Position numbers and translations under genes: made by a program
Shown here: piece by piece, positions 3,503 through 14,774 of the stretch
Numbering within the stretch: position 1 is the stretch's first letter
Layout: the number at the start of each line of letters is the position of its first letter
The notes under the pieces: generated by a model
Seen by the model: the letters and a program-made list of their open reading frames with translations, nothing else
Database searches by the model: none
Told to the model about the DNA's origin: nothing
IMG/VR virus record: IMGVR_UViG_3300042937_000066
Location: 1-31,608 of that record
Reading direction: 5' to 3' (one strand)
DNA length: 31,608 bases
From: a virus

Positions 3503-4378
3503 CTATTCGTCAGCACCCCAACCACCGCCACCCCAATCTCCTTGGCGTGTATAGCTTGGAGTAAAGTTATTCATTTCTAAAATATCATCACGAATGTTTT
3601 GATTACGCTTTTCAATGTTTAGAACACGTGTAAAGCTGTTAGTAATAGCCGCTGTGTAGTAGGCAAATGGGTTTTGTGATTTTGCTTCGTCAAACTGTAG
3701 GCCAATTTGACTTAACTGGAGTAATGCCTGTGATCGCATTTCATCGTTGTAGGTATAACCACGCCAGTTACTACGTGTAGCATAGCGTTCACATAGTTTA
3801 ATAAACATGTGTGCTAGTTTAGGCGTCATTGACCCGTGGTCTTTGGTAAACTTACCTTTTTCAAAGTCGCCCTTCCAATGACTAATTCCTACTAGCACTG
3901 GATTGCTTTCTTCATCTACTTTGTAATGTTTAAATGGGGGGAAATTAACTTTAGTGTACTTGGTTGCGCCTTTAATAACCATAGGCTCATCGTATTCAGT
4001 TTCAAAGTTTTCTTCGTACCATTCCTCCTGTGCTTTAGCATCTGCTTTCTTTTGTTTGATGTCGTCAATAGGTATATGATCCCAGGTCATAACACGGAAC
4101 ACTACATCTGTTTGGGGAATTTTACCTAATGCTGTTAGATATTCATCTAATTTTTTCTTGACACCATTTAACAGATCAATTTCTTGTTGTTCTTTGGCTA
4201 GACGTTCGGCACGTGCTTTGCGTGCTTCTGCTATGGATTTTTTGTTTATTTTATCAATACTTGCTACGATCATGTCATAACTACTGTCAGTTGGACTAAC
4301 AAAGCTACAATATGTTGTTTTACTTTTATGAATTTCTTTAAGAATATCTTTATTGTTAAGATAATTTACCTTTCTCAT
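3503..4378 (-). CDS. 55: Late-transcription sigma factor, gp55-like
   Basis: 291 residues. Residues about 185-266 resemble the sigma region 2-like core of T4-type gp55. Landmarks are SNWRGYTYNDEM, then NPFAYYTAAITNSFTRVLN and NQNIRDD, the part that contacts RNA polymerase and reads the TATAAATA element. An N-terminal region of about 180 residues with a charged coiled-coil stretch (45-80) makes it much longer than T4 gp55 (185 residues). The C-terminus is acidic and tryptophan-containing after a run of four glycines; by analogy with T4 it may touch the sliding clamp, but the motif is not obvious. AAGGA at 4389-4393 (complement) lies 10 bases before the ATG. A perfect late promoter points at the gene from 4447. 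Being next to gp47/gp46 fits T4-type gene order. Confidence 0.88.
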   Translation of the reverse strand: MRKVNYLNNKDILKEIHKSKTTYCSFVSPTDSSYDMIVASIDKINKKSIAEARKARAERLAKEQQEIDLLNGVKKKLDEYLTALGKIPQTDVVFRVMTWDHIPIDDIKQKKADAKAQEEWYEENFETEYDEPMVIKGATKYTKVNFPPFKHYKVDEESNPVLVGISHWKGDFEKGKFTKDHGSMTPKLAHMFIKLCERYATRSNWRGYTYNDEMRSQALLQLSQIGLQFDEAKSQNPFAYYTAAITNSFTRVLNIEKRNQNIRDDILEMNNFTPSYTRQGDWGGGGWGADE

Positions 4379-4416: not shown

Positions 4417-4424
4417 TATAAATA
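4417..4424 (+). promoter_or_regulatory. T4-type late promoter for the baseplate operon
   Basis: A perfect TATAAATA, the T4 late -10 element, followed by CATG. By T4 spacing the transcript would start near 4430, giving a leader of about 21 bases before the tail-tube cap ATG at 4451. No -35 element is needed for gp55-type promoters. It faces the minus-strand promoter at 4440-4447. Confidence 0.82.
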
Positions 4425-4439
4425 CATGAAAGCAAGAGG

Positions 4440-4447
4440 TATTTATA
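4440..4447 (-). promoter_or_regulatory. T4-type late promoter pointing at the gp55-like gene
   Basis: The plus strand reads TATTTATA, so the minus strand has a perfect TATAAATA followed by CC. By T4 spacing the transcript would start near 4434, leaving a leader of about 56 bases before the gp55-like ATG. If active, the late sigma factor would drive its own gene and probably gp47, gp46 and the radical SAM gene behind it. Confidence 0.68.
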
Positions 4448-4450
4448 ATT

Positions 4451-5437
4451 ATGGCATTTAATTTTTCCAGTGTAGCACAAACAGCTAGTAACTTACTTAG
4501 GGGTGCTTCTAAGCGGTCGTCTGGCACTGTGTTTGACCTATTAGATCCGTCGAACGCACGTCGAGCTATATCTGGTCTACTACCGGGCGGCGCAAGCGGT
4601 AGTAAAGAATCACCAAACATAGGATTCCAAGATCAAGCCGGATCTGGATCAGCAACTGCCGCCGGCGAAGATGATTGGCGAGTGCGATTAAGTTTGGCAG
4701 AAGGATCATCTATATTTTATAAAGACTCTTCATCTCCATCAGATTCTATAATGACACCTCTGATTGAAACCAACGGTGTTATTTGGCCATATACCCCACA
4801 AGTTTCAATTAGTCATGTTGCTAACTACAATCCTGTACAGCTTACACATAGTAATTATTCCGCACAATTCTACAACAACTCAGATGTGGCAGATATACAG
4901 ATATCTGGCGATTTTACTGTGCAAAACGTAGAAGAAGGGCAATATTTAATGGCAGTGATTTACTTTCTGCGTGCCAGTACTAAAATGTTCTTTGGTAGTG
5001 GTAATAATGTGGGCAATCCTCCGCCTATCTTATTCTTAGATGGATACGGAAGCCATTATTTCCCACATGTACCAGTAGTGATAACTAATTTTACACATAC
5101 CATGCCCAATGAAGTTGATTATGTAAATGTGCCGGTGTATGTAACCACCACAGAAACCCTTACAACTGATTATGGAAGTGTACAGGGGGCAATACCTGGG
5201 AAGGATTATCCAGCAATGTTAAGTAGCGGTGCGCCAACAGGACAAACAACACAGTCACAGACAACAATGTCCACTACAACAACTAGTACTACAAGGTTGC
5301 CAACTAACAGTACTGTATCAGTAACACTGCGACCAATATACAGTCGCAAAAATCTACATGATAGATTTAATCTTAACGACTTTGCTCAAGGTAAATTGAT
5401 CGCAGATAAAGACAAAGGCTTTGGAGGCTTCTTATAA
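4451..5437 (+). CDS. Baseplate tail-tube cap protein, gp48/gp54-like
   Basis: 328 residues. A variable, Gly/Ser-rich N-terminus (1-70) precedes a core with WRVRLSL (about 76-82), NYSAQFYNNSDV and FFGSGNNVGNPPPILFLDGYG. The protein ends with a beta strand NSTVSVTLRPIYSRKNL, then NLNDFAQGKL and GGFL, a C-terminal pattern of tube-cap proteins in aquatic T4-like phages. A threonine-rich linker (about 263-282) separates core and tail. Such proteins sit on the baseplate hub and start tail-tube polymerisation. It is first in the operon, with SD AGAGG at 4435-4439. The stop overlaps the next start as TAATG. I cannot decide between a gp48 and a gp54 equivalent; only one such gene is in the window. Confidence 0.68.
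   Translation: MAFNFSSVAQTASNLLRGASKRSSGTVFDLLDPSNARRAISGLLPGGASGSKESPNIGFQDQAGSGSATAAGEDDWRVRLSLAEGSSIFYKDSSSPSDSIMTPLIETNGVIWPYTPQVSISHVANYNPVQLTHSNYSAQFYNNSDVADIQISGDFTVQNVEEGQYLMAVIYFLRASTKMFFGSGNNVGNPPPILFLDGYGSHYFPHVPVVITNFTHTMPNEVDYVNVPVYVTTTETLTTDYGSVQGAIPGKDYPAMLSSGAPTGQTTQSQTTMSTTTTSTTRLPTNSTVSVTLRPIYSRKNLHDRFNLNDFAQGKLIADKDKGFGGFL
5423..5427 (+). promoter_or_regulatory. Strong ribosome binding site inside the upstream gene
   Basis: GGAGG lies nine bases before ATG 5437 and also encodes the terminal Gly-Gly of the tube-cap protein. Together with the TAATG overlap it fixes the start of the gp53-like gene. Confidence 0.75.
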
Positions 5438-8859: not shown

Positions 8860-10971
8860 ATGGCAATAGATCAAAGAACGGGTAGTAAAGTATCAAAACA
8901 TATTAGACGCGAAGATGCTCCGGGCACACGTGTTGACCCATATCCGTATATTGGTGTAGTAAAAAACAATTTAGATCCTACCCGGTCTGGCCGCTTACAG
9001 GTATTCATTCCTGACCTAGGTGGTAATCCTGATGATCAAAAAAACTGGCGTACAGTAAGTTATGCTAGTCCGTTTATGGGCTATACCAGCACTGAACAAA
9101 AAGCAGCCGATCCTTATCAAACAGAAAACAAATTTGACACAGTGACCCATACCTATGGCATGTGGGCAGTGCCACCTGATTTAGGTGTAGAAGTCATTGT
9201 ACTGTTTGTTGCTGGCGATCCATTAAGGGGTTATTGGTTGGCTTGTGTTAACTCTAATCTAAGTCATCACATGTTACCAGGCATGGCAGGTAGTACAAAT
9301 TTTGAAGTGGCCACGGCTGAAGCCGGAGATAAGAAAACATTAATCTACGGTATTCCGGTACCAGTAGTTGAGTTTAATGAAAACAACAAAGATAGCGTAA
9401 GCAGTCCACAGTTTTATAATTTACCAAAACCTGTACACACGGTACAGTATAATATATTAAAAAATCAAGGTCTAGATAGAGATCCAATTCGAGGATCTAC
9501 AACCAGCAGTAGCCAACGCGAAACTCCTAGTCATGTATTTGGTATCAGCACACCAGGTCGTCCAATGAATGATCCGGCCGACGACGGGCAGTACGAAGCT
9601 AAATTAAACTCTGGTGAAATTGACAAAGAATACTTCCGTGTAAAATCACGCAAAGGTGGGCACACGTTTGTCATGGACGATGGAGCAACATTGGGTGAGG
9701 ATCAGCTGGTGCGTCTACGCACAGCAAAAGGTCATCAGGTGTTGATGCATGACACTGCTAATAATCTATACATAAGTCACGCAGATGGCACCAGCTGGAT
9801 AGAACTAACTCCACAAGGCGCAGTTAAAATATATGCTAAGTCTGGATTTCATGTTCGCAGTGAAGGTAGTATAAATCTACACTCTGACAGTTCGATTAAT
9901 ATCGAAGCTAAAAACAATATTAATTTTAGAGCCGGCAACAAGTTTCAAGTTAACAGCGTTACTACAAATCTACTACAGAATAAATTTAGTTTAGAGTCTG
10001 CTAGCAACAGTGAATTTAAAGTAGGCGGCACCTGTAACTTTGACGTAGAAGCCAAGATATCGTTAAAAGCTGGCGGAGCAATAGCAATAGAAGGATCACA
10101 ACTACTACAACAAAGCGGCGGAACTAATATAGTTAACAAACTAACTCCGTTGCCGACTAACGACCTGCCGGATGTTACATTTGATTCCTCACTAGGGGTT
10201 TGGCTAAACAAAGCTAAAGCGTTGAATACTATAGTTACAGCGGCACCAACACACGAGCCCTACTACAGAGGTGCTAGTGTTGAATATTTCAAATCAGAGG
10301 CTGCCGGAGTTACTCCACAGGAAAAATTTGATGGAGCATCGGATGCTACAAAAACTGTCACGGGCGCAGGTCTACATAAACCCGCAGGTGATAAATCTTT
10401 AAGAAATCAACCCGACCCCGGTAGTACTGTAGGCAATCTATCAAAAGAACAAATGACAGCATTACTAGCACAAATTGGTAACAGTGAAAGTGGCGGAAAT
10501 TACACTAGCATTAATCCTTTTGGTTATATAGGAAAATATCAATTTGGCGCAGAAGCCCTACAACGTATGGGTTATATTAAATCAGGATTAGTAACCAGCT
10601 ATAAACAGCTAGGAGCAGAAAAGCACAAGGCTCTACTAAACAATCCTAACAGCTGGGTCGCTAATAAATGTGCTAGCCAAGACGAATTCCTTAACAATCC
10701 AGCACTACAAGAAAAAATAATGGAACAATTTACAGCTCAGAACTATTCTGACATGATTAGCAACGGTGCTATTACCAAAGATATGACCCCAGAAGATGTT
10801 GGTGGTATGTTGATGACCGGACACATGTTGGGCGCAAGCGGAGCAAATACTTGGCGCAAAACAGGTAGTGGGCAGGACGGCAATGGTACAACCGGTAGCT
10901 TGTATTTCAAAACAGGCAAATATGCTGTATCAGTGCTGGCACCTAAAATGCCAGAGATCAACGCTGGATAA
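8860..10971 (+). CDS. 5: Baseplate central spike, gp5-like, with C-terminal murein hydrolase domain
   Basis: 703 residues. An OB-fold occupies about 25-135 (YIGVVKNNLDPTRSGRLQVFIPD, then WAVPPDLGVEVIVLF and GDPLRGYW), as in gp5 and VgrG spikes. A repetitive beta-helix needle follows at about 260-425, with GHTFVMDDG, LVRLRTAKGHQVLMHD and short IN/IE repeat strands. After a linker, residues about 527-703 form a lytic transglycosylase-like domain: NSESGGNY with probable catalytic Glu543, then GYIGKYQFGAEALQRMGY. In T4 gp5 an unrelated lysozyme lies between OB-fold and needle; here the enzyme is at the needle end. The protein would puncture the outer membrane and cut peptidoglycan. AAGGCGGA at 8843-8850 serves as ribosome binding site. 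Confidence 0.88.
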   Translation: MAIDQRTGSKVSKHIRREDAPGTRVDPYPYIGVVKNNLDPTRSGRLQVFIPDLGGNPDDQKNWRTVSYASPFMGYTSTEQKAADPYQTENKFDTVTHTYGMWAVPPDLGVEVIVLFVAGDPLRGYWLACVNSNLSHHMLPGMAGSTNFEVATAEAGDKKTLIYGIPVPVVEFNENNKDSVSSPQFYNLPKPVHTVQYNILKNQGLDRDPIRGSTTSSSQRETPSHVFGISTPGRPMNDPADDGQYEAKLNSGEIDKEYFRVKSRKGGHTFVMDDGATLGEDQLVRLRTAKGHQVLMHDTANNLYISHADGTSWIELTPQGAVKIYAKSGFHVRSEGSINLHSDSSINIEAKNNINFRAGNKFQVNSVTTNLLQNKFSLESASNSEFKVGGTCNFDVEAKISLKAGGAIAIEGSQLLQQSGGTNIVNKLTPLPTNDLPDVTFDSSLGVWLNKAKALNTIVTAAPTHEPYYRGASVEYFKSEAAGVTPQEKFDGASDATKTVTGAGLHKPAGDKSLRNQPDPGSTVGNLSKEQMTALLAQIGNSESGGNYTSINPFGYIGKYQFGAEALQRMGYIKSGLVTSYKQLGAEKHKALLNNPNSWVANKCASQDEFLNNPALQEKIMEQFTAQNYSDMISNGAITKDMTPEDVGGMLMTGHMLGASGANTWRKTGSGQDGNGTTGSLYFKTGKYAVSVLAPKMPEINAG

Positions 10972-10979
10972 ATATTACT

Positions 10980-11357
10980 ATGGCTATTATGTATAGAGGA
11001 TTTAGTACAGTGGGGCGAACTAGAAAGTTTCGTCTGACTGACTTTGAACTAGTTAAACAGGATATTATCAATCACTTCCATATCCGTAAGGGTGAGAAGT
11101 TAATGAATCCTAACTTTGGTACGATCATCTGGAACGTACTACATGAGCCTTTGACCGAAGACTTAAAAAGTGTAATAACTTCTGACATTAAATCTATTGC
11201 TAGCTACGATCCACGTGTTGGCATCGACAACGTAATCATCACAGAATACGAATTTGGTATTCAAATTGAATTAGAACTACGCTACATTCAAACTAATCAG
11301 ACCAGCGCAATGAATCTACGCTTCAACAGTCAATCAAACTCAGTTACAATGGTATAA
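10980..11357 (+). CDS. 25: Baseplate wedge protein, gp25-like
   Basis: 125 residues, close to T4 gp25. RKGEKLMNPNFGTIIW and HEPLTEDLKSVITSDI match the lysozyme-like fold shared by gp25 and TssE. The EPR motif of the family appears as DPR at 77-79 (YDPRV). gp25 binds gp6 and gp53 at the inner wedge core, in contact with the sheath. ATG 10989 is an alternative start giving MYRGFSTVGR, which may be the true N-terminus. Neither start has a clear ribosome binding site, so coupling to gp5, which ends eight bases upstream, is likely. The gene ends in two stop codons in a row (11355-11360). Confidence 0.92.
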   Translation: MAIMYRGFSTVGRTRKFRLTDFELVKQDIINHFHIRKGEKLMNPNFGTIIWNVLHEPLTEDLKSVITSDIKSIASYDPRVGIDNVIITEYEFGIQIELELRYIQTNQTSAMNLRFNSQSNSVTMV

Positions 11358-11372
11358 TAAACTACGCACTTA

Positions 11373-11405
11373 TATTTCCTGATAAATACATTATAACAGG
11401 AAATA
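11373..11405 (+). promoter_or_regulatory. Hairpin sequestering the gp6 ribosome binding site
   Basis: TATTTCCTG (11373-11381) and CAGGAAATA (11397-11405) form a perfect 9-bp stem around a 15-base loop. The 3' arm holds AGGAAATA, the ribosome binding site of the gp6 ATG at 11409. Read-through RNA from upstream could fold; RNA started inside the loop could not. Confidence 0.75.
11381..11388 (+). promoter_or_regulatory. Probable late promoter for gp6, inside a hairpin loop
   Basis: GATAAATA, one mismatch from the TATAAATA late element, followed by CATTATA. Predicted transcript start is near 11394, 15 bases before the gp6 ATG. The same AAATACATTATA extension precedes the giant gene at 14781. Confidence 0.68.
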
Positions 11406-11408
11406 AGT

Positions 11409-14400
11409 ATGGCTACCACAACAAGACAAACGAGTTTACTAGTTGCTGAAGACTGGACAAAGCTCTATCAAACCTTCCGTAGTGCGGATTTTCAAAGCTA
11501 TGATTATGAAACCTTGCGTAAGAGCATGGTCGACTATCTTCGCTTATACTACCCAGAAGATTTCAACGACTTCATTGAATCAAGTGAATTTGTTGCCTTA
11601 ATTGATCTCATTGCTTTCTTAGGACAATCGCTAGCATTCCGCGGCGACTTAAACGCACGTGAAAACTTTATCGACACAGCGCAACGTCGTGATAGCATTC
11701 TTAAACTTGCTAAACTAATTTCATATAACCCTAAACGCAATGTTGCTAGTAGCGGTTATTTAAAACTTGACAGTGTAAGTACTACCGAAACAGTATTTGA
11801 CAGCAACGGCTTAAATTTAGCCAGCTTGGTTGTTAACTGGGCAGATGCTGGTAATGATAACTGGTATGAACAGTTCATCACAGTATTGAATGCTAGTTTT
11901 AACTCAACGCAGGTTGTAGGTAAGCCTAGTAACAGTGCCTTAATTAACAACATTGTAACTGATGAATATCAAATTAATCTAATTCCTAACCTTGTTGCTA
12001 CATATTCTTTCCAAGCAGACATTGAAGGTAGCCAAACACCTTTTGAATTAGTAAGCCCTACTAGTGCTGGTCAAAGTTACATCTACGAAGCTGCGCCTCG
12101 CCCTAATACTAGTTTTAATCTATTGTACAAAAACGACAACCTAGGAAATAACAGTGCTAATACTGGATTTTTCTTATACTTCAAGCAAGGCGAATTAAAA
12201 TCAATTGATGTAAACTTCCAAGAAAGTTTACCTAATCGTGTTTATAGCATTAACGTTAATAACATTAACAACTCTGACATCTGGGTTTATAGTTTAGATC
12301 AAAATGGCGCTGTCGACACACAGTGGGCTAAAGTTCCTGCTGTGGGCACTACCAACGTGATCTACAATAAGAGCACAAACAAAAATGTTTACCAAGTAAA
12401 CAGCCGTGCTGGCGATCAAATTGATCTAGTGTTTGGTGACGGATCATTTAGTAACGTACCACAGGGTCGTTTCCGTATCTACTATCGTGTCAGCAACGGA
12501 TTAGAATATAAAATTACTCCAGACGAGCTACGTGGCATTACTATGTCAATAAACTACACTAGCCGTAACAATCGTGTTGAAACATTGACCATGCGTGCTA
12601 GCTTACAGTACACAGTGGCTAATGCTACAACACGTGAAACATTAGATGACGTGCGCCAAAAAGCACCGCAACAATACTATACACAAGATCGTATGGTCAC
12701 TGCGGAAGACTATAACATTTTACCATATACCCTGTTCAACAACGTATTAAAAGTTAAAGCAGTTAACCGTACAAGTTCTGGTGTTAGTCGTTACCTAGAT
12801 GTTATCGATACTACAGGTAAGTATTCAACTACTAATATTTTCTGCCAAGATGGTATGTTGTATCGCGAATCATTCATTAATTCGTTTAATTTTGATTTTG
12901 CCACAACCAATGATATTTTTAAAATATTAACAAATAGAATTAAACCTATTGTGGCAGAAAAAGAAACACAACAATTCTTCTATGCCTTCTATGATCTAAT
13001 CAATCTTGATGACTGCTATTGGAATAAATCAACTGAGATTGCCAACGGCAACACAGGATACTTCTATGACAGCTCAGATAAGATTCTACAACTTGGTAGT
13101 TATGTAGCTGGTAACAAAAAATACATTAAACAAGATGCTATTGTTAAATTTAGCGCAGGTGAAGGCAACTATTTTAATGCGTTAAATCAAATTAAAGCAG
13201 GTACTCCTACTAAAAACGGTGATAAATTTTATATCTATGCTAGCATACGTGAAGTACTAGCTGACGGTACTAACGGCGGCAACGGCAATTTATCTAACGG
13301 CAGTGGCCCGGTAGTTATTAATCAATCCGTGCCTACAGGTGCTAAGGCAATTCAAGCCTATGCGGTGTTTAATATTGATCTACCAAATTCATTAATCACT
13401 AGCATGACTGAATACATTGAAGCATTCCAAGACTTTGGTATACGTTATGATGTTGACACTAGCAGTTGGAAAATTGTCCTACCAGAAAACCTAAACACCA
13501 CAGGTGACTTTAGTCTAGCAAACGCAGGACTTGCTAATGACACTAGCTGGATAATTCGTTTCCAAACCAAAGGACAAACATTTACAGTTTGGTACCGTGG
13601 TGTTAACTATGCGTTTGAAAGTGTTATAGAAACTAACTTCTATTTTGATACTAAAGTTAAAGTGTTTGATCCTAAAACAGGATTTACAATCAACGACCAA
13701 ATCAACGTCCTCAAAATTAATAGTCAGCCCGATAGCACAGCCTTCTTGGGTATTGATTATAGTTGGTATGTTTATAAAAATATTACAGAAGCAGATGGCT
13801 ACGAAAATCCTAGTAAGATCTTAGTTACCTTTCCCGACAGTGACAATGATGGCGTGCCAGATAATCCTGAACTGTTTGAATTAATTGTTGCTCCTAGTAC
13901 AGACACAAAATCTAAATATGTGTTCTTCCAAAATACATATAGCTATGATAATTTTGTAGTACAAACACCAGTTAGCAATGATTTGGTTATAACAGAATAC
14001 GACACCCTAGTACAAATACAATCTGCGGCAACCTTATACACTAACGGGCAACTATTTTATCTAGCAGACAGAAATGAATTTTATCAACTAGTAGTAGTTG
14101 GCTCAGTATATACTCCAACATTGGTCACTGGCTACACTGCTAAAATAGGACGTCAAGACCTATACTTCCAGTATCGTCATAACAGTCCTAACAACAGACG
14201 TATTGACCCTAGTCCAAATAATATTGTTGACTTGTACATGCTGACTAAAACTTATGCTACTGATTACGTTGCTTGGTTACAGGACACATCAAATAAATTA
14301 TCTGAACCGACTGCTCCTACTCCTGAGGTTTTAGCCACAGACTTTAATGCGCTAGACAACTATAAGAGCATCAGTGATACAATCATTTACAATCCTGCTA

Positions 14401-14774
14401 AATTTAAACCAATCTTTGGTAGCAAGGCAGCTACAGCATTACAGGCTACGTTTAAGGTAGTTAAAAATCCCAACGTGGTTGTCAGCGACAACGACGTTAA
14501 AGTTGGAGTAATTGCGGCTATTAATCAATATTTTGATATAGCTAACTGGGACTTTGGTGAAACATTTTACTTTTCAGAGCTAAGTGCGTATCTACACAAT
14601 GCTCTAGCACCTAACATTGCCAGTGTTATAATTGTGCCAGCAAGCGAAACAGAAGCATTTGGTAGACTGTTTCAAATCAACGCTGAATACAATGAAATTA
14701 TAGTAAGTGCCGCAACAGTAGACAATGTACAAATTATTAGTTCCATTACTGCTGCGCAATTAAACCAGGTTTAG
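11409..14774 (+). CDS. 6: Baseplate wedge protein, gp6-like
   Basis: 1121 residues against 660 in T4. The N-terminal part is a clear gp6 signature: DFQSYDYETLRKSMVDYLRLYYPE, FIESSEFVALIDLIAFLGQSLAFRGDLNARENF and SILKLAKLISYNPKRN. A middle segment YYTQDRMVTAEDYNILPY and GVSRYLDVID fits the J/gp47-like wedge fold. The C-terminal third holds FKPIFGSKAATALQATFKVV and a final beta domain. gp6 dimers link the six wedges into the ring around the hub. Residues 810-818 form a DxDxDGxxD calcium-type loop. Translation start is set by AGGAAATA at 11398-11405, which lies in a hairpin arm. The extra length is typical of insertions between conserved blocks. Confidence 0.92.
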   Translation: MATTTRQTSLLVAEDWTKLYQTFRSADFQSYDYETLRKSMVDYLRLYYPEDFNDFIESSEFVALIDLIAFLGQSLAFRGDLNARENFIDTAQRRDSILKLAKLISYNPKRNVASSGYLKLDSVSTTETVFDSNGLNLASLVVNWADAGNDNWYEQFITVLNASFNSTQVVGKPSNSALINNIVTDEYQINLIPNLVATYSFQADIEGSQTPFELVSPTSAGQSYIYEAAPRPNTSFNLLYKNDNLGNNSANTGFFLYFKQGELKSIDVNFQESLPNRVYSINVNNINNSDIWVYSLDQNGAVDTQWAKVPAVGTTNVIYNKSTNKNVYQVNSRAGDQIDLVFGDGSFSNVPQGRFRIYYRVSNGLEYKITPDELRGITMSINYTSRNNRVETLTMRASLQYTVANATTRETLDDVRQKAPQQYYTQDRMVTAEDYNILPYTLFNNVLKVKAVNRTSSGVSRYLDVIDTTGKYSTTNIFCQDGMLYRESFINSFNFDFATTNDIFKILTNRIKPIVAEKETQQFFYAFYDLINLDDCYWNKSTEIANGNTGYFYDSSDKILQLGSYVAGNKKYIKQDAIVKFSAGEGNYFNALNQIKAGTPTKNGDKFYIYASIREVLADGTNGGNGNLSNGSGPVVINQSVPTGAKAIQAYAVFNIDLPNSLITSMTEYIEAFQDFGIRYDVDTSSWKIVLPENLNTTGDFSLANAGLANDTSWIIRFQTKGQTFTVWYRGVNYAFESVIETNFYFDTKVKVFDPKTGFTINDQINVLKINSQPDSTAFLGIDYSWYVYKNITEADGYENPSKILVTFPDSDNDGVPDNPELFELIVAPSTDTKSKYVFFQNTYSYDNFVVQTPVSNDLVITEYDTLVQIQSAATLYTNGQLFYLADRNEFYQLVVVGSVYTPTLVTGYTAKIGRQDLYFQYRHNSPNNRRIDPSPNNIVDLYMLTKTYATDYVAWLQDTSNKLSEPTAPTPEVLATDFNALDNYKSISDTIIYNPAKFKPIFGSKAATALQATFKVVKNPNVVVSDNDVKVGVIAAINQYFDIANWDFGETFYFSELSAYLHNALAPNIASVIIVPASETEAFGRLFQINAEYNEIIVSAATVDNVQIISSITAAQLNQV
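13836..13862 (+). other. Calcium-binding-type loop within gp6
   Basis: Encodes D810-S-D812-N-D814-G-V-P-D818, the DxDxDGxxD spacing of thrombospondin type 3, dockerin and EF-hand-like calcium loops. The flanking sequence ends in PELFELIV. No metal binding is proven. Confidence 0.5.

Follow-up and report, generated by a model that had tools for sequence, protein, structure and literature searches.

The window analysed here is a 31.6-kb stretch of phage DNA (31,608 nucleotides) whose profile-matched genes include gp46/47-like genes, the late sigma factor gp55, gp53, a gp5-like gene, gp25 and gp6. The gp55-like late sigma factor is encoded on the minus strand (3503–4378; phrog_12791, 2.7e-79; phrog_234, 5.3e-24). 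The plus strand carries the gp25-like baseplate wedge gene (10980–11357; Pfam GPW_gp25, 9.7e-8; phrog_261, 7.4e-15), which is the 5' neighbour of the gp6-like baseplate wedge gene (11409–14774, ATG at 11409; phrog_10646, E printed as 0; phrog_219, 6.2e-26). The profile search upheld gp6, as named in a first-pass annotation of the window, and likewise gp25 and the late sigma gp55.

The two wedge genes are separated by a noncoding spacer of 51 nt (11358–11408, plus strand) that carries all elements of the putative control region. Its conserved ACTACGCACTTA (11361–11372) is followed by the hairpin 5' arm TATTTCCTG (11373–11381), by the T4-type late promoter GATAAATA (11381–11388), whose first G is also the final base of the 5' arm (11381), and by the 3' arm CAGGAAATA (11397–11405), which includes the gp6 Shine-Dalgarno sequence (SD) AGGAA at 11398–11402. 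Dependence of the promoter on gp55 is suggested by the conservation of NATAAATA and by the gp55 homologue of the window. In T4 the +1 of late transcription lies 13 nt after the first promoter base, and 11394 is what we take to be the +1 of the gp6 late promoter. NATAAATA sits in the loop, and the predicted start comes after the 5' arm.

The arms are perfect reverse complements over 9 bp. The repeat, with the late promoter between its arms and the gp6 SD within the 3' one, is present in the sequence as first annotated, and so is the bulged extension that joins CTTA (11369–11372) to TAAG (11404–11407). In the minimum free energy structure part of ACTACGCACTTA pairs with 11404–11408, forming an outer helix that adjoins the start codon. 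Folding of 11350–11430 (81 nt), a check suggested earlier, gave -12.4 kcal/mol, where shuffles average -6.83 +/- 2.06 (z -2.7); this value was matched by 2 of 200 shuffles and beats the other 198. The window holds five perfect 9-bp inverted-repeat matches with a spacer of 3–24 nt, two of which overlap as one repeat. Random first-order sequences (n=10) hold 5.3 +/- 4.2, which makes five a chance frequency. NATAAATA is enclosed by two of the five (the one at gp6 and another at 4417–4447) versus a mean of 0.0 in the random sequences: the unusual feature is the repeat enclosing NATAAATA, not the repeat by itself. Note that at 4417–4447 two facing TATAAATA motifs make up a perfect 9-bp inverted repeat, located between the gp55-like gene (minus strand) and a structural gene at 4451 (plus strand). 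The gp55 gene may have its own late promoter there, 61 nt before its ATG.

Conservation of the promoter and co-variation of the arms

A scan of viral contigs for gp6 relatives gave 80 loci among the matches listed (237 confirmed). Together with the window these are 81 loci, of which 75, representing 38 distinct spacers, have the gp6 start and enough upstream DNA to be usable. The six loci dropped are too short upstream (L008, L012) or lack the N terminus (L042, L064, L066, L070). Thirty-two distinct spacers form a closer clade with 65–100% gp6 identity, and six are distant, with 52–56% (L072, L073, L074, L076, L077, L081). Alignment, permutation and wobble tests were carried out on the 32 spacers, with the distant ones left out, while opening energies were computed for all 38. 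NATAAATA is kept in 38/38 distinct spacers (75 usable loci, window included, among the matches listed), and the ACTAC belonging to ACTACGCACTTA is found in 28 of the 32 distinct clade spacers among those matches. An intrinsic terminator (a GC stem and then a run of T) was considered for this junction and rejected, as none was detected in 10000–13000 of the window nor in any of the 32 distinct clade spacers among the matches listed.

The 32 distinct spacers of the matches listed pair their own arms with a mean of -11.0 kcal/mol. Arms swapped between spacers reach -9.56 +/- 0.33 kcal/mol and were as good as own arms in 0 of 20,000 permutations; shuffling of the 5' arm lowers the pairing to -6.06 +/- 0.37 kcal/mol. 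Swapped arms pair well because the SDs and the T-rich arms are alike across spacers. The advantage of own over swapped arms survives thinning of lineages by gp6 nucleotide identity (4/20,000 at 22 lineages, 19/20,000 at 16). Control region pairs gave a much weaker signal, the lowest value being that of a far-upstream arm against the 3' arm (779/20,000 at 16 lineages), a relatedness control that shows a weak effect in the same direction as the arm co-variation. Compensated arms are exemplified by TCCATTA/TAATGGA in L053 and by TTTATTTCTAA/TTAGGAATAAA in L055; single gp6 cases reach z values of -1.2 to -2.6 only. The search for paired changes in related phages that had been proposed earlier thus finds arms that co-vary in the closer clade. 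Chance complementarity in an AT-rich spacer with an SD would account for the frequency of such repeats in the window and for the pairing of swapped arms, but pairing is far worse with shuffled 5' arms, and own arms still outdo swapped ones in 16 thinned lineages, which leaves this explanation a negligible probability.

With a scoring neutral between both, the gp6 arms contain 22 G.U against 10 A.C pairs. These counts are not independent and they are noisy, helices other than the SD helix being chosen in, for instance, L004, L005, L014 and L040. The excess of G.U over A.C is in the direction expected of an RNA structure rather than of DNA.

Predicted accessibility of the gp6 start

The predicted probability that the SD of the window is unpaired is 0.01 in read-through RNA versus 0.83 in RNA started at 11394. 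Across the closer clade it is predicted to be below 0.5 in read-through RNA for 31 of the 32 distinct spacers of the matches listed, L004 being the exception. Opening of positions -15 to +3 in read-through RNA has a predicted mean cost of 10.5 kcal/mol over the 32 clade spacers, compared to 6.1 when the 5' arm is shuffled and 2.3 in self-started RNA. Since part of the easier opening of self-started RNA comes from its shorter length, the shuffled 5' arm is the fair control; the predicted cost in read-through RNA exceeds that of the spacer's own shuffles in 32/32 clade spacers among the matches listed. Folding and comparison support the earlier proposal that self-started RNA would lack the 5' arm and have its SD freed, the start being predicted from the T4 rule.

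The exception L004 is 84% identical and, among the matches listed, the distinct relative nearest to the window; it has lost the gp6 SD helix. In its read-through RNA the SD has a predicted unpaired probability of 0.81 and the opening cost is 7.7 versus 7.1 +/- 1.7 kcal/mol for shuffled arms. Another local hairpin (L004:4960–5003; ACTGTAT / ATACAGT) surrounds the SD and covers the bases just before and at the ATG; its 5' strand would also be absent from self-started RNA. The six distant spacers keep the promoter and on average have no clear arms. Their predicted opening costs are 6.7 (read-through), 5.8 (shuffled) and 2.6 kcal/mol (self-started), and the hairpin is therefore a property of the closer clade.

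Late promoters of other genes

The gene scan covered the contigs of five relatives and the window, with open reading frames called by a greedy caller of our own and orthologues counted repeatedly. These six contigs have 106 NATAAATA sites located 5–70 nt before a called start. A terminator precedes 14 of the 106, and 19 belong to the hairpin class, which includes gp6 in 6/6 contigs. Nine of the 19 have a divergent neighbour, and the facing SDs of divergent neighbours create a repeat by themselves. That the gp6 5' arm is the SD of a divergent gene was rejected because the gene upstream of gp6 is co-directional in the six contigs scanned; on the minus strand behind AGGAAA there is no start codon close by. 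An origin of the 5' arm in the promoter consensus was also rejected, since arms of this kind are lacking at other late promoters of the contigs. Over the 78 late promoters with room for an SD, own arms (-6.49 kcal/mol) have no significant advantage over swapped arms (-6.19; 2324/20,000). The hairpin is therefore gene-specific, and the idea that it is a general property of late promoters was discarded.

The strongest hairpin, a long one with the promoter in its loop, precedes the gene for a protein of 305 aa that matches phrog_211 as head-tail adaptor Ad2, a name also carried by T4 gp13 (L103:5687–6604, minus strand; also L136–L215). Eighty loci of this gp13-like gene were found; omission of L201 (which starts at residue 26) and of six without an ATG near the expected start leaves 73 usable loci with 36 distinct spacers. 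NATAAATA is in the loop and AGGAT in the 3' arm in 36/36, and reading by eye showed the SD to pair across the promoter in all 36. The stems span 9–21 columns, with at least 13 in 34 of the 36, and are stronger than the gp6 version. Their arms contain 21 G.U against 7 A.C pairs. At fibre-like genes (G003 site 146980, minus strand, in the L104/L103 region, and G004 site 97052) arms flanking the promoter were also seen to pair with the SD region.

Two other functions of the gp6 repeat can be weighed against these data. One is a DNA-level palindrome around the promoter, acting as a regulator site or cruciform, to which perfect arms flanking the promoter and, at the gp13-like gene, stems as long as 21 columns would conform. 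It is exceedingly unlikely given that G.U exceeds its opposite-strand mirror A.C (22:10 and 21:7) and that such a repeat is missing from most late promoters of the contigs. The other is that the hairpin mainly serves RNA processing or 3'-end stability between gp25 and gp6, SD burial being a by-product. This role fits a stem-loop that directly follows a stop codon where the spacer has no terminator, but what makes up the 3' arm is the SD, placed at constant spacing, the loop invariably contains the promoter, and a second gene start has the design too; we consider such an element very unlikely.

The gp25 gene has a different arrangement. A second late promoter GATAAATA (10967–10974, plus strand) overlaps the stop of ORF 8860–10971 and lies 5 nt before the gp25 ATG. 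NATAAATA-N5-ATG is found in 26 of the 39 distinct sequences upstream of gp25; 8 others have GATAAGTA or GCTAAATA at this spacing. In clade contigs, ORFs of at least 60 aa show two peaks (n=121) in how far their first ATG lies from NATAAATA: 27 are at 4–7 nt (16 at exactly 5), 0 at 8–16 and 54 at 17–25. By the T4 13-nt rule a 5-nt spacing puts the AUG at +1, and gp25 and other late genes likely have leaderless late mRNAs. Seven clade contigs contain the pattern ATAAATANNNNNATG 23 times and the reversed control 3 times; in 15 cultured records including T4 the counts are 42 versus 21. In T4 itself, 24 TATAAATA sites precede an ORF start with no distance below 13. Genes with ATAAATA-N5-ATG have no SD at the usual place and should therefore be poorly translated from read-through RNA too. 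TATAATA also peaks 5 nt before ATG-initiated ORFs (9/112, clade contigs G001–G004 and G007), perhaps reflecting leaderless early transcripts.

Role of the hairpin and comparison with known phages

The anatomy of the spacer, the conservation of its promoter, the co-variation of its arms, the predicted change in accessibility and the second case within the clade point to a self-liberating translation start, which would tie gp6 to its own late promoter and insulate it from upstream read-through (probability of about 0.8). Read-through RNA from the upstream baseplate operon would have both arms and fold, with the gp6 SD and the start-adjacent bases paired, and gp6 would be poorly translated from it, the strength of this repression being a prediction. 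RNA from the gp55-type promoter of the loop would begin near 11394, as judged from the T4 rule and from folding, and would lack the 5' arm; its SD should be open, a few bases from the 5' end. Gp6 is probably made mainly from RNA begun at its own promoter.

Late transcription of the region is in keeping with the gp55-like gene present in the window (phrog_12791, phrog_234). The profile-matched plus-strand genes from 4451 to gp6 code for virion proteins, late-type promoters at 4417 and 10967 precede these genes, and sigma-70-like sites within 10000–13000 are near chance (12 versus 9.1 +/- 2.5). By gene content and promoters the operon upstream of gp6 looks late. Decoupling from late read-through is therefore a likelier role than an early/late switch. 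In such a switch the same hairpin would block gp6 translation from early or middle read-through RNA, a temporal gating that is the role documented in T4 in the excerpts of PMC3014915 and PMC2988022. The genes of gp46/47 and gp55 are close by, as this gating would have it, but they are on the opposite strand, and the virion genes, late-type promoters and chance-level sigma-70-like sites described above also speak against it; we regard it as unlikely. Tentatively, insulation of gp6 could belong to a wider programme in the clade that restricts late translation to own-promoter RNA, each late virion gene being insulated by one of three interchangeable devices. These would be a terminator before the promoter, a promoter in a ribosome binding site hairpin (gp6, gp13-like), and a promoter exactly 13 nt before the AUG, giving leaderless RNA and a read-through RNA without SD (gp25 and others).

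Cultured jumbo phages have another element at the same junction. Among 77 phage records with a gp6 match, 14 were examined, picked by us to span genera. A terminator lies between gp25 and gp6 in 8 of these 14 cultured relatives versus 0 of the 32 clade spacers of the matches listed. It is directly followed by ATAAATA in seven of the 14 (PBECO4, XaC1, BF, CBB, Munch, GAP32 and Hallingskeid); in RaK2 the terminator stands without ATAAATA, XacN1 shows the reverse, and five of the 14 have neither. For CBB and GAP32, the excerpt of PMC5259590 proposes that ATAAATA is the late promoter. In the eight cultured relatives with the motif the predicted opening cost is 4.2–8.7 kcal/mol versus 4.5–7.9 with shuffled arms, and the upstream arm there therefore hides nothing. 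The first-pass annotation had named relatives with the promoter but without complementary arms as evidence against its reading. The arms are kept in the closer clade, L004 excepted; such relatives are found among the six distant spacers, and all eight cultured relatives with ATAAATA keep the promoter without sequestering arms, seven of the eight having the terminator. The junction of the seven cultured phages thus shares with the clade its gene order and the position of the promoter, and differs in the terminator placed before the promoter and in an upstream arm that adds no sequestration over shuffles. The simplest reading suggests that terminator and hairpin both insulate gp6 from upstream RNA, a job that in many cultured jumbo relatives the terminator would do at this same junction. 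The comparison opens the presumed purpose, to shield gp6 from gp25 read-through, to direct test.

The T4 genes e, soc, 49 and I-TevI are described in the excerpts of PMC3014915 and PMC2988022 as having a hairpin that sequesters the ribosome binding site and an internal late promoter; the SD and/or AUG is in the 3' arm and a short late RNA lacks the 5' arm. The position of the late promoter between the arms and of the SD in the 3' arm is the same at gp6 of the clade. According to the excerpt of PMC2988022 the transcripts of the T4 cases carry early and middle genes as well, so that their read-through RNA is early or middle, whereas the operon upstream of gp6 looks late. The clade gp6, unlike the T4 cases, is an essential-looking baseplate wedge gene of an uncultivated clade, for which the evidence is comparative. 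The mechanism of the first-pass annotation, T4 logic applied to a baseplate gene, is partly supported by comparison and prediction; its use on a baseplate gene is not new, since T4 genes 25 and 26 are listed among those with sequestered ribosome binding sites in the excerpt of PMC2988022. Gene 26 of T4, a baseplate gene too, has the same anatomy (CTCCTTT-[TATAAATA]-AAAGGAG before its ATG; accessibility of 0.24 in the long and 0.92 in the short RNA). It is divergent from gene 51 and its 5' arm is the complement of the gene 51 SD, while the neighbour of gp6 is co-directional. Note that the scan of T4 DNA is not a full positive control, because the soc hairpin did not show in it (0.73 / 0.73) and gene e and several others, whose leaders are short, have no accessibility value.

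A literature search that covered few subscription papers returned no report of the mechanism at gp6 or gp13 or in this clade. It has been described before, and there are precedents for it at baseplate genes; what this analysis adds is its conservation at virion genes in a new group of T4-like phages. The classic T4 trick, so far mostly known from lysis, capsid-decoration, recombination and homing-endonuclease genes, thereby gains members among the conserved virion genes of a phage group that is abundant and uncultivated, and does so in a seemingly all-late operon.
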